Of a stretch of DNA of 54,683 nucleotides, positions 18,453 to 25,113 are shown piece by piece. A program made the translations under genes and the position numbers. Numbering within the stretch: the stretch's first letter is position 1; every line of letters begins with the position of its first letter. Origin of the DNA: Robiginitomaculum sp. (GTDB taxonomy: Bacteria > Pseudomonadota > Alphaproteobacteria > Caulobacterales > Maricaulaceae); contig NVXK01000015.1 in NCBI GenBank assembly GCA_002733905.1, positions 1 through 54,683 on the forward strand. The letters run 5' to 3'. Under the pieces are notes generated by a model. The model was given only the letters and a program-made list of their open reading frames with translations. It made no database searches and was not told the DNA's origin.

Positions 18453-18537
18453 TTATCCTCACAATCAAAAATAGCCTAGACAATTACAACGGGCATACAA
18501 GAATAAACATGCGAGTCCGATTCACTTAATATCTACG

Positions 18538-18593
18538 CGCCGAAATACTTGACGCCGAAATACTTGGCATTGTTTCCTGCTTAGGACTATAGT
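18538..18593 (+). promoter_or_regulatory. Promoter of the nickel-SOD operon with a 15-bp direct repeat
   Basis: Two copies of CGCCGAAATACTTG (18538-18551 and 18553-18566, period 15) are followed by a strong sigma70-like promoter: TTGGCA at 18564-18569, an 18-base spacer, and TATAGT at 18588-18593. The second repeat overlaps the -35 hexamer, so a bound regulator would be placed to control transcription. The start codon of the operon lies 34 bases past the -10, with AGGAG at 18616-18620. The identity of a regulator is unknown. Confidence 0.6.
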
Positions 18594-18626
18594 TTGACCA
18601 TTCAATAGATTCTTTAGGAGCGGATT

Positions 18627-18833
18627 ATGAAACTGATTAAATCAATCGCACTTGGTAGTGCAGCAATACTGGCGAGTGCAACACCAGCATTTGCACATAT
18701 AGGCGATCACAATGAAAGTGTAATGGCAAATCTTGGCCATTGGCTCTCAAGCCCTTCACATGCATTATTTGCAGTTATTGGCGGCATTGTTGCAGTTGTC
18801 ATCATTGTTAAAATTTCTAAAAAACGCGCATAG
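18627..18833 (+). CDS. Small HupE/UreJ-like single-span protein of the nickel-SOD operon
   Basis: A 68-residue protein with a signal peptide (1-23, ending TPAFA) and one C-terminal transmembrane helix (about 46-63) with a Lys-rich end. The predicted mature protein starts with histidine (HIGDH), and the middle reads GHWLSSPSHALFAVIGG. The spacing His-x6-His (His38 to His45) and the flanking pattern match the first helix motif HPxxGxDH of HupE/UreJ nickel permeases, whose mature N-terminus also begins near HxGH. Here only that first section exists, far short of the usual 190-200 residues. Its stop overlaps the ribosome site of sodN, and sodN starts 9 bases later. A role in nickel delivery or binding for SodN is inference from motif and context. 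Confidence 0.75.
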   Translation: MKLIKSIALGSAAILASATPAFAHIGDHNESVMANLGHWLSSPSHALFAVIGGIVAVVIIVKISKKRA

Positions 18834-18841
18834 GAGACATT

Positions 18842-19330
18842 ATGTTACATACACTGATTTCAAAACTAGACACTTCCCTCGAAACAGCGTCTGCCCATTG
18901 TGACATTCCCTGCGGTATTTACGACCCTCAGCCAGCGCTTTATCATGCACTGTCAGTTGTACGCCAAATGGATATATTACTGGGTCTGAAAGACAAAGAG
19001 CTCGACGTACATACCTGTATGCAAATCGCACGTAATACTGCGGAAAAAGAAAAACAGGCTGAAAAAGTGAAAGTTGAAATTCGCATTATCTGGGGCGATT
19101 TCATCAAAGGTGACAACCTTAAAAACAACCCACAAGCGCACGATCTTGCTCACGGCATTATGCTAAAAGCAAGTGCATGTAAGCAAGACCTTCACCGTGA
19201 AGACGGCGAAGCTTTGGTTGAGCTTGTGAATGAATTCGCTGAAATGTTTTGGAAAATAAAAGGCGTAAAAACAAAACGTGTAACTGCGCCTTATGCGCCG
19301 GCTCTTGAAGTCGTGTATCCAGACCTTTAG
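18842..19330 (+). CDS. sodN: Nickel superoxide dismutase
   Basis: Ni-SOD converts superoxide to oxygen and hydrogen peroxide. The 162-residue precursor carries an 18-residue N-terminal propeptide (ending ETASA) followed by the nickel hook HCDIPCGIYDP. After cleavage His19 becomes His1, Cys20 and Cys24 become the Cys2 and Cys6 ligands, and Tyr27 becomes the gate residue Tyr9. The remaining part is the four-helix bundle of the family (LSVVRQMD, KEKQAEKVKVEIRIIWGDF, and so on). It is flanked by the HupE-like mini-protein and by the maturation protease gene, which begins four bases after its stop. The propeptide has no export signal, so the enzyme is presumably cytoplasmic. Confidence 0.95.
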   Translation: MLHTLISKLDTSLETASAHCDIPCGIYDPQPALYHALSVVRQMDILLGLKDKELDVHTCMQIARNTAEKEKQAEKVKVEIRIIWGDFIKGDNLKNNPQAHDLAHGIMLKASACKQDLHREDGEALVELVNEFAEMFWKIKGVKTKRVTAPYAPALEVVYPDL

Positions 19331-19334
19331 TCGG

Positions 19335-19631
19335 ATGAAAATTCTCAAAGTTGACGGTGAGAGTATGTCGCCAACTTTGAACGCAGGCGATTATGTTGTC
19401 TGTAAGAACATTAAGCCTCGGTCAATTCGGCCGGGGCTTATTTATATCATCAATCATTCTGATCTTGGGCGGATTATAAAACGCGTACATATAGCTGAGG
19501 ATGGCCAATATATGTTGAGTGGAGATCACCCGAGTTCTACCCCCTCAGCCGTCATGGGGCCCATAAAAAAAGAGCGCATTGTGCAACGCGCTCTTTTTGT
19601 CATTTCTAAATCGGGTCTAAAAAAGCTATAA
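19335..19631 (+). CDS. sodX: Nickel-type superoxide dismutase maturation protease (S26 family)
   Basis: A small signal-peptidase-like enzyme of 98 residues that removes the SodN propeptide to expose the N-terminal nickel-binding histidine. The S26 catalytic serine is Ser10 in GESMSPTL and the general base lysine is Lys49 in GRIIKRV; the GDHPSSTPSA box at about 63-72 is the usual C-terminal motif. There is no transmembrane anchor, in line with a cytoplasmic substrate. The start is the ATG 4 bases after sodN; a longer open frame from 19293 overlaps sodN and is not needed. There is no clear ribosome site, so translation is probably coupled to sodN. The last 22 codons contain a terminator hairpin. 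Confidence 0.93.
   Translation: MKILKVDGESMSPTLNAGDYVVCKNIKPRSIRPGLIYIINHSDLGRIIKRVHIAEDGQYMLSGDHPSSTPSAVMGPIKKERIVQRALFVISKSGLKKL
19567..19598. terminator. Bidirectional terminator inside the sodX 3' end
   Basis: An 11-bp perfect stem (AAAAAGAGCGC / GCGCTCTTTTT) with a 10-base loop and flanking A/T runs lies entirely in coding sequence, ending 33 bases before the sodX stop. Convergent secF ends only 2 bases past sodX, so there is no intergenic space for a terminator. The hairpin has the A-run/T-run symmetry needed to stop transcripts from both sides. Termination here would remove the end of the sodX message, so readthrough or stalling behind ribosomes must matter. Confidence 0.65.
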
Positions 19632-23664: not shown

Positions 23665-25113
23665 TTACCCACCCAGACGTAATTGGAGCCGCACAGCTTG
23701 AGTATCGCCAGAGACAGAGCCCAAGAGCCCAAATGACATATGACTAGCTTCATCCCCTAAACGAAGTTGCACGCCACCGCCAAAGCCGTATTCAATCCCG
23801 CCAAACCCATCATCATATGCAGATATACCACCAGAAGTCGCCCAAGATTCATCCATTTGTAAGTATAAATCTGGCATTGCAGCTAAGGCTGCGCGACCAT
23901 GCCGAAGCTCTTTGATCATACCCGTATTTTGCATAATCAAATTGAGATTTCGTGAAATGTCTCCCTTATTTTGGCTTACACCGCTTGTATTCATGATAAT
24001 TGCAGATGTGTTCGCAGAGATAGCGGAGCTGTAAGTCGCAACCGTACGTGTGTTCACAGCAATAGCCTGCCTATTCGTTGATATACCTGAAACATTCGTA
24101 ATAATCGTCGCAGTATTATCAGCAATAGCGGCCGAATTATCATGCGTTTCTACAACAAATGCCTCAATAGCAGTCGTGTTATCGGCAATACCTGCCGTAT
24201 TCGTCGCAATGGCACCGCTATTATTTTGTATGCCAGATGTGTTGACGGCAATCGCACCACTATTGTCTTGAATTCCTGATGCATTGACCGCAATCGCACC
24301 ACTGTTATTTTGAATATTCGATGTGTTACCCACTATGGCAGCACTATTACCTTGAATGTCAGACGTGTTGACCGTAATCGCGGCGTTGTTATCTTGAATA
24401 TCAGATGCGTTGACCGTAATGGCATCACTATTCCCCTGAATATCAGATGCATTGACCGTAATCGCGGCACTATTATCTTGAATGTCAGACGCATTGACCG
24501 TAATCGCAGCATTATTTCCAGAAACACCAAGAGTGTTTGCCTCGATCTGTACCGTATTTGCATTTACGGCTTCTATGATAACGCCATTATCCGAACCAAT
24601 TGTCCCATTTTCATCAACCGTAACAAGCTGTAAGGCAGGAATTTGTGCACGCGTTGGCTCTGAAACTAATAAGGCCGATATCACGTCAGGTGCATTTTCG
24701 CTTGTTAGCGACATCTGATTCGTGAGCACACGTTGGTTCACGAATGTTTCGGACCTCGACACCGAAATTTGAGGTACATCAATATATTGAGTGACACGAT
24801 CCTGCACATAACTCACGGCTGTAATTGGCGTAGCTATAATTGGTGTGGTTATAATTGGTGCGGATATAATCGGTGCGGCTGTAATTGGTGCGGCTGTAAT
24901 TGGTGCGGCTGTATTTCGGGGAGAGCTTGAAATATCAAGACACCAGGCTCCGCTCGAACCCATTGGCATTATCGTGTTACATTTTACAAATCCAACTGGA
25001 GCTGCGTATGCTTGGCTAAAACACCCAGTACTTAGAAATACTGCGTATGCTAGCCTTTTTAAAAAGGGAATCTTTAAATCACAAAATATAGTATTAAGGT
25101 GTAGGTTTGACAT
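23665..25113 (-). CDS. Trimeric autotransporter-like adhesin (YadA-type)
   Basis: A 482-residue secreted protein: signal peptide to about residue 37 (SQAYA), a short head with Cys45/Cys58 and a Pro-rich pentapeptide-like repeat (ITAAP/ISAP/ITTP units, 68-100), then a stalk dominated by 14-residue repeats (about 200-315; consensus NSAAITVNASDIQ) that predict a left- or right-handed trimeric coil. More irregular coil follows to about 395, ending in LIMQNTGMIKELRHG. The last 80 residues resemble a YadA anchor (four strands, RAALAAMPDLYL... GGIEYGFGGGVQLRLG... FGLLGSVSGDTQAVRLQLRLGG), although the terminal aromatic residue is absent. It would assemble as an outer-membrane trimer that binds surfaces or host cells. 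AGGAGA supports the start. It interrupts the otherwise conserved pcm-LysM-yajC neighbourhood. Confidence 0.75.
   Translation of the reverse strand: MSNLHLNTIFCDLKIPFLKRLAYAVFLSTGCFSQAYAAPVGFVKCNTIMPMGSSGAWCLDISSSPRNTAAPITAAPITAAPIISAPIITTPIIATPITAVSYVQDRVTQYIDVPQISVSRSETFVNQRVLTNQMSLTSENAPDVISALLVSEPTRAQIPALQLVTVDENGTIGSDNGVIIEAVNANTVQIEANTLGVSGNNAAITVNASDIQDNSAAITVNASDIQGNSDAITVNASDIQDNNAAITVNTSDIQGNSAAIVGNTSNIQNNSGAIAVNASGIQDNSGAIAVNTSGIQNNSGAIATNTAGIADNTTAIEAFVVETHDNSAAIADNTATIITNVSGISTNRQAIAVNTRTVATYSSAISANTSAIIMNTSGVSQNKGDISRNLNLIMQNTGMIKELRHGRAALAAMPDLYLQMDESWATSGGISAYDDGFGGIEYGFGGGVQLRLGDEASHMSFGLLGSVSGDTQAVRLQLRLGG
24178..24516 (-). repeat. 42-bp tandem repeats of the adhesin stalk
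   Basis: About eight in-frame 42-base units encode the 14-residue stalk repeats (NSAAITVNASDIQ type). Several neighbouring units are nearly identical at DNA level, for example the runs containing GCATTGACCGTAATCGCGGC, so recent expansion by recombination or slippage is likely and copy number may vary between strains. Confidence 0.85.
24814..24912 (-). repeat. 15-bp minisatellite coding the adhesin head repeat
   Basis: Five or six 15-base units (GGTGCGGCTGTAATT and variants such as GGTGTGGTTATAATT) encode the pentapeptides ITAAP, ISAPI, ITTPI and IATPI. The last three plus-strand units are identical, pointing to recent duplication. Confidence 0.8.

Follow-up and report, generated by a model that had tools for sequence, protein, structure and literature searches.

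A HupE-like one-helix microprotein encoded directly upstream of nickel superoxide dismutase in Robiginitomaculum, with relatives in other nickel-enzyme operons

Permeases of the HupE/UreJ family (PF04955) have six membrane helices, begin with a histidine once the signal peptide has been removed, and carry an HPxxGxDH motif, also named HX5DH. How nickel reaches the nickel superoxide dismutase (NiSOD) in bacteria without the transporter SodT is, to our knowledge, an open question. In cyanobacteria, SodT is a UreH-family protein whose membrane nickel gene is co-located with sodN and sodX (PMC4284471). For another nickel enzyme, the Ni2+-dependent guanidine hydrolase GdmH, PMC11399263 places hupE directly downstream of related metformin-hydrolase genes. 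In HupE_UreJ_2 proteins with anglerase domains (PF13795), an N-terminal histidine has been proposed (PMC12537917) to act as a periplasmic metal fisher that passes metal to a HupE-type permease. We recognised no paper in the open-licence PMC literature on a one-helix HupE in nickel operons.

The DNA analysed here (the window) comprises positions 1 to 54,683 of contig NVXK01000015.1 from Robiginitomaculum sp. Three genes form a unit on its + strand: one for a 68-aa protein that we call mini-HupE (18627..18833), sodN (18842..19330), and a sodX-like gene (19335..19631), with gaps of 8 nt and 4 nt. The initial annotation had described a small exported single-span protein preceding sodN and sodX, and this description was borne out both here and, as detailed below, in nearly all related genomes with sodN. 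The mini protein is laid out as a predicted signal peptide of residues 1-23 ending in A-x-A (18627..18695; its cleavage is inferred), a predicted mature N-terminus H24-I-G-D-H28 over conserved columns, giving the pattern HxxxH (18696..18710), a second histidine pair H38-WLSSPS-H45 (18738..18761), and a single membrane-spanning hydrophobic helix with a basic C-terminal tail (18753..18830). The 162-aa product of sodN is a NiSOD by both profile and motif, with TIGR02753 at 133.2 bits against a cut-off of 90, PF09055 at 135.7 bits, and an HCDxPC hook; the hook HCDIPCGIYD starts at residue 19, and the codon for the mature N-terminal histidine lies at 18896-18898. The third gene encodes a 98-aa protein that scored 53.5 bits with TIGR02754, short of the SodX cut-off of 63.25; we call it a sodX-like maturation peptidase because of its gene position and its match to Peptidase_S24/S26. 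The intergenic region upstream of the mini gene (18453..18626, + strand), as read from its sequence, is a possible promoter or operator. A 14-base direct repeat, CGCCGAAATACTTG, occurs there with a period of 15 (copies at 18538-18551 and 18553-18566). Elsewhere in the window, on the - strand, a 482-aa ORF (23665-25113) has many degenerate NxSxIQxNSxAIxVN-type repeats and appeared adhesin-like by eye.

Co-occurrence with sodN was examined in 137 genomes of the window's GTDB family. A sodN match was found in 46 of them (45 above the cut-off), and the DNA upstream of sodN was viewed in all 46. A small exported one-span gene lay directly upstream in 44, representing all 8 genera with sodN; the exceptions were G073 and G585. 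The distance from the end of the mini gene to sodN was 2-21 nt, apart from an 8-nt overlap in G594 if the first methionine of SodN is taken as its start. A profile (A6) built from 19 members, used at E up to 1e-4, matched 42 of the 137 genomes: 40 of the 46 with sodN versus 2 of the 91 without it (Fisher p about 1e-25, in a test that ignores shared descent), and thus the association expected by the initial annotation was found. In both sodN-less genomes with a match (G664 and G669), the mini gene came right after the gene for the large subunit of a [NiFe]-hydrogenase. A mini gene was also present on contig NZ_AUAC01000002.1 of Hellea balneolensis DSM 19091, according to a further scan with 16 named loci, among which gene order was viewed at L144 and L150.

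Conservation among the 44 family members was concentrated in the features named above. The end of the signal peptide was kept as A21 in 43 and A23 in 42; at the mature N-terminus, H24 was kept in 40 (absent in the other 4 in the alignment) and G26 and H28 in 37 each. The columns of H38 and H45 were each conserved in 41 members, and the complete H-x6-H pattern in 39, being absent from G602, G607, G608, G627, and G629. Net charge over the last 14 residues was +3 to +5 in all 44. Across operon types, the conserved columns were mainly the histidines plus the A-x-A site.

The link to nickel is wider than the initial annotation had it, extending to urease, [NiFe]-hydrogenase, and guanidine-hydrolase-like operons. 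Outside the family sodN set, 16 further short matches were inspected: 15 with frames of up to 100 codons, plus G896, whose frame exceeds this length only through the part ahead of its methionine. This count keeps G364 (L053) and leaves out G426 (a 38-codon frame); in one scan, matches in long frames or over the signal peptide alone were not counted as minis. Nickel-enzyme operons of the three kinds named held 10 of the 16, and other places the remaining 6. In urease operons, the mini gene followed ureA (G022), lay between ureA and ureB (G294, G386), or followed ureG (G427, G324); in G061, a full-length HupE/UreJ gene occupies the place after ureA that the mini gene has in G022. Beyond G664 and G669, hydrogenase-linked minis were located between the large subunit and the maturation protease (G684) and, in G896, behind a large subunit that was identified by eye from its C-terminal sequence. 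The mini gene of G531 and an arginase-family gene appear to share an operon, with one His-rich ORF between them; the arginase-family protein matched PDB entries 7esr/7oi1 best, at 460 bits, with the next different family at 165. We take 7oi1/7esr to be the guanidine hydrolase GdmH.

Among the matches in other places, four from one genus (G863, G689, G695, G692) came directly after tatC, where no nickel enzyme was seen nearby, and one (G261) stood alone between two unrelated genes. The match in G364 was set aside as likely due to chance, having no signal peptide. At L171, L172, L173, and L180, again of one genus, a 64-aa mini protein reading HSGHGH...WHWLLEFDHIGW (in L180, WHWLFEFDHIGW) overlaps the end of tatC.

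Farther from the family, forms of intermediate size were encountered. In the class sample, INTERMEDIATES, sodN was matched in 14 of 385 genomes (12 above the cut-off). One genome of this sample, G543, encodes a 66-aa one-span protein 5 nt before sodN; a TonB-dependent receptor gene (L159:4180-6393) directly precedes this run of one-span gene, sodN, and sodX. Within the order sample, a single gene separates sodN from the gene of a one-span His protein in G056. HupE-like proteins of 123-141 aa, with three helices by eye, are encoded directly upstream of sodN in G200 (L062), G407 (L063), and G439 (L059); they occupy a middle position between HupE and the one-helix proteins. A three-helix form also follows a hydrogenase large subunit in two genomes of the order sample, G008 (by Pfam) and G102 (by eye). 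In G302 (L064:1099-1983), a three-helix HupE-like segment and SodN share one ORF (PF04955 22.0 bits, Sod_Ni 145 bits), a possible natural fusion of permease and enzyme. With the filters used, no mini gene was found within 1.5 kb before sodN in G241, G463, G388, G207, G438, G518, or G055, nor beside the signal-peptide-bearing SodN-like genes below the cut-off in G165, G110, G069, G169, G119, G289, or G310. SodN-like proteins below the cut-off at L023-L027, L068, and L069 have an export-type signal directly before HCxIPCGIY; judging from this arrangement, their N-terminal histidine could be made by signal peptidase. No sodX was noticed in their surroundings.

The relationship to HupE was assessed by profile, motif, and predicted structure. 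When 13 mature minis were aligned with 10 mature HupE proteins (hhalign, signal peptides removed), the score was 30.0 with 69% probability, as compared to 17.2 for the best of 100 column shuffles, and the aligned region placed the N-terminal tail and first helix in register; the automatic cut left extra residues on two sequences and went too far into HupE L071. Single types scored lower, with the sodN type at 21.1 (13%) and the urease type at 20.0 (7%), over best shuffles of 17.2 and 18.1. For 39 sodN-type minis the score against HupE was 20.9 (14%), a value reached by none of 200 block shuffles (best 20.5), and the reversed-alignment control gave 12.2. The initial annotation's expectation of similarity beyond chance is thus supported by scores above shuffled controls after removal of signal peptides, the similarity being weak for single sequences. 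A profile of 15 minis (A7; E up to 0.001) matched 45 of 398 genomes of the phylum, and the 30 loci returned comprised 9 short proteins and 21 long frames, all 21 of which had HPxxGxDH at the match. AlphaFold2 modelled the window protein as a short helix (32-41) that breaks off at Ser-Pro before a second helix at 43-67 (mean pLDDT 76.6), and HupE from G061 as a short helix (31-35), a break, a helix at 42-58, and five more (84.1).

Individual sequences remained below the thresholds of known families. The window protein had no NCBIfam match and no PF04955 match up to E 1. Against the PF04955 cut-off of 23 bits, one-helix relatives scored from 14.1 to 21.0 or not at all (G261 21.0, G022 18.2, G664 16.6, G386 15.3), and three-helix proteins came closest with 22.1 (G407) and 22.0 (the G302 fusion), G200 giving no match; matches of short or three-helix relatives had E values of 0.0059 to 0.00012, all below cut-off. 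Profile searches of the PDB with the HupE and mini alignments yielded no useful relative, and neither tblastn against plasmids nor a single-protein scan of genome contigs gave a match. The motifs named by the initial annotation were confirmed: A-x-A followed by H24, H24-x3-H28, and H38-x6-H45 are all present, so that by sequence, with cleavage predicted, a signal peptide is followed by a mature N-terminal histidine as in HupE; the HPxxGxDH motif is not intact, HWLSSPSH keeping both histidines but not the Pro that follows the first of them, the Gly, or the Asp, the last being Ser here. The motif Asp was found in none of the 39 sodN-type members with H-x6-H; several minis linked to urease, hydrogenase, or tatC retain it. 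After its signal peptide the mini has one membrane-length helix in the AlphaFold2 model, compared with the six of PF04955. On these criteria the protein, which lacks five helices and the motif Asp, does not qualify as a HupE permease; it falls in a one-helix, HupE-like family associated with nickel enzymes.

Such a resemblance might also arise by convergence, in a small exported His protein unrelated to HupE whose pattern amounts to a signal peptide, histidines, and a hydrophobic helix. The sequences are very short, each type alone has a low hhalign probability, and the lack of a PF04955 match for the window protein is what convergence would predict. Weak Pfam matches, moreover, go more often to the TrbC/VirB2 pilins (PF04956) than to HupE: the window protein reached 14.4 bits with this pilin family (E 0.044; cut-off 27.9), and in single-sequence searches 7 of 15 minis matched TrbC (best E 3.2e-5, below cut-off) and 3 of 15 PF04955. 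With the signal peptide removed, TrbC was matched by none of 10 minis and PF04955 still by 2 of 10, a low fraction for the mature part; TrbC pilin was rejected on the loss of its weak matches. Also against convergence, none of the 200 block shuffles or 100 column shuffles reached the observed scores, the histidine spacing is identical in minis and HupE (H-14-H-7-H), and minis stand in the place of HupE/UreJ in urease and hydrogenase operons. On balance we consider convergence unlikely.

A regulatory role is less probable still. In a CutF-like sensor, the strongest of the rival mechanisms, the nascent exported protein would bind metal during export and control translation of sodN in cis. The mini fits in being small, with a Sec-type signal peptide and a His motif, 2-21 nt before sodN, and PMC9973294 describes His-only CutF-like clusters beside HupE/UreJ genes, as well as a relative, CzcI, without the proline motif. 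The PP motif was seen in the last 15 residues of none of the 44 family members and none of 15 others; since CzcI, according to that study, also lacks it, its absence does not absolutely exclude the CutF type. RNA structure over the sodN start was not unusual (mean z 0.15; none of 44 windows below -2), and the histidine spacing shared with HupE likewise argues against a sensor. The gene after the mini gene of G324 lies on the opposite strand, and that of G427 sits between ureG and an unrelated gene; with no related gene downstream, there is therefore nothing obvious left to regulate in either genome. We regard this explanation as improbable.

Two further explanations fare worse. The mini might be a membrane receptor specific for assembly of SodN or SodX with no nickel role of its own, as the nearly constant order of mini gene and sodN in the family would allow; the occurrence of such proteins in operons for urease and hydrogenase argues against this specificity, and we give the idea very little credence. 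Among the 25 pairs of lowest dS, dN/dS ranged from 0.04 to 0.70, all below 1; cross-clade pairs have high dS, and the within-clade ratios are therefore the meaningful ones. Judged from these alignments, the protein is under purifying selection, which speaks against decay. A random ORF was rejected on dN/dS and conservation and so, as the least credible explanation of all, was a functionless remnant of decaying hupE, which would account for the survival of the first helix alone and the loss of the motif in a few members but is largely refuted by that selection, by similar length and a basic tail in 44 of 44 members, and by retention beside sodN in 8 genera.

The reading we prefer, to which we assign a probability of about 0.7, is that mini-HupE is a microprotein related to the N-terminal portion of HupE/UreJ, with its signal peptide, periplasmic His tail, and first transmembrane helix, and would serve nickel capture or uptake at the periplasmic face; it probably represents a pared-down component for delivering nickel to nickel enzymes. 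A role in nickel supply is probable because the mini gene adjoins sodN and genes like it are found in operons for urease, hydrogenase, and a guanidine-hydrolase-like enzyme. From what was computed (the gene, its operon position, its conservation, the HupE profile similarity, and the association with nickel enzymes), we infer the cleavage, topology, Ni2+ binding, and uptake or transfer of the following scheme. The signal peptide would be cleaved, leaving the protein anchored in the inner membrane, its N-terminus facing outward and its basic tail ending translocation. Its four histidines (the N-terminal His, HxxxH, and H-x6-H) would then capture Ni2+ at the periplasmic face, and the protein would assist passage of the ion through the membrane for use by the nickel enzyme encoded alongside it, in this case NiSOD. 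Two modes can be envisioned: several copies may form a permease themselves, or the mini may feed another permease. The first mode, a homo-oligomeric nickel permease or channel of single-helix minis with rings of H38 and H45 as the path, serving as a module common to NiSOD, urease, hydrogenase, and guanidine-hydrolase operons, is possible but doubtful. Such a permease would be smaller than any metal importer known to us.

The data on potential partners are mixed. Among 28 of the 46 sodN genomes tested, HupE_UreJ_2 was found in 22, NicO in 4, and CbiM in none. Six had none of the three (G580, G591, G118, G630, G632, G019), NikABCDE-type importers lying outside this search; PF04955 had no match in G580, G591, or G019, and G019, 99% complete, had no NicO, HupE_UreJ_2, CbiM, or PF04955 match. 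Nickel supply in these six genomes could depend on the mini, with the same restriction as to NikABCDE. NicO was found in both sodN genomes without a mini (one genus) versus 2 of 26 others (p 0.016, Fisher test ignoring shared descent). The window's own genome has HupE_UreJ_2 (PF13795) matches at G000:C16:1290-1745 and G000:C27:20124-20561 (L167:2672-3682). These two proteins are possible partners of the mini protein.

Recurring in several nickel operons where the permease would stand, one-helix relatives of HupE define a family of nickel-linked microproteins and raise the question of how little of a permease suffices to transport a metal ion or pass it on. Small membrane genes such as this one are easily missed by annotation. 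The Pfam family DUF6732 (PF20506, 72 positions) may, from weak matches in G896 (L170; E 0.0013), G386 (L030; 0.025), and G427 (L153; 0.15), be a catalogued neighbour of the mini kind; all these matches fall short of the family's 27-bit cut-off, the window protein has none, and no paper in the open-licence PMC literature names it. Like the CutF-like sensors portrayed in PMC9973294, the mini is a small exported protein with a metal motif, encoded close before a metal-related gene; unlike them, it has no C-terminal proline motif and no stem-loop, and its gene can be the last of its operon. SodT shares the neighbourhood of sodN and sodX, but it is a six-helix transporter of another family (PMC4284471). 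The anglerase domain (PMC12537917) is folded and fused to a complete permease, whereas the mini is a short tail and one helix. From HupE/UreJ (PF04955) the mini differs in having one helix rather than six, in the replaced Asp of HPxxGxDH, in the absence of HGxAHGxE, and in scoring below the family cut-off; it resembles HupE/UreJ in its signal peptide, its mature N-terminal histidine, its H-14-H-7-H spacing, its short helix followed by the first membrane helix, and the places that minis hold in urease and hydrogenase operons.
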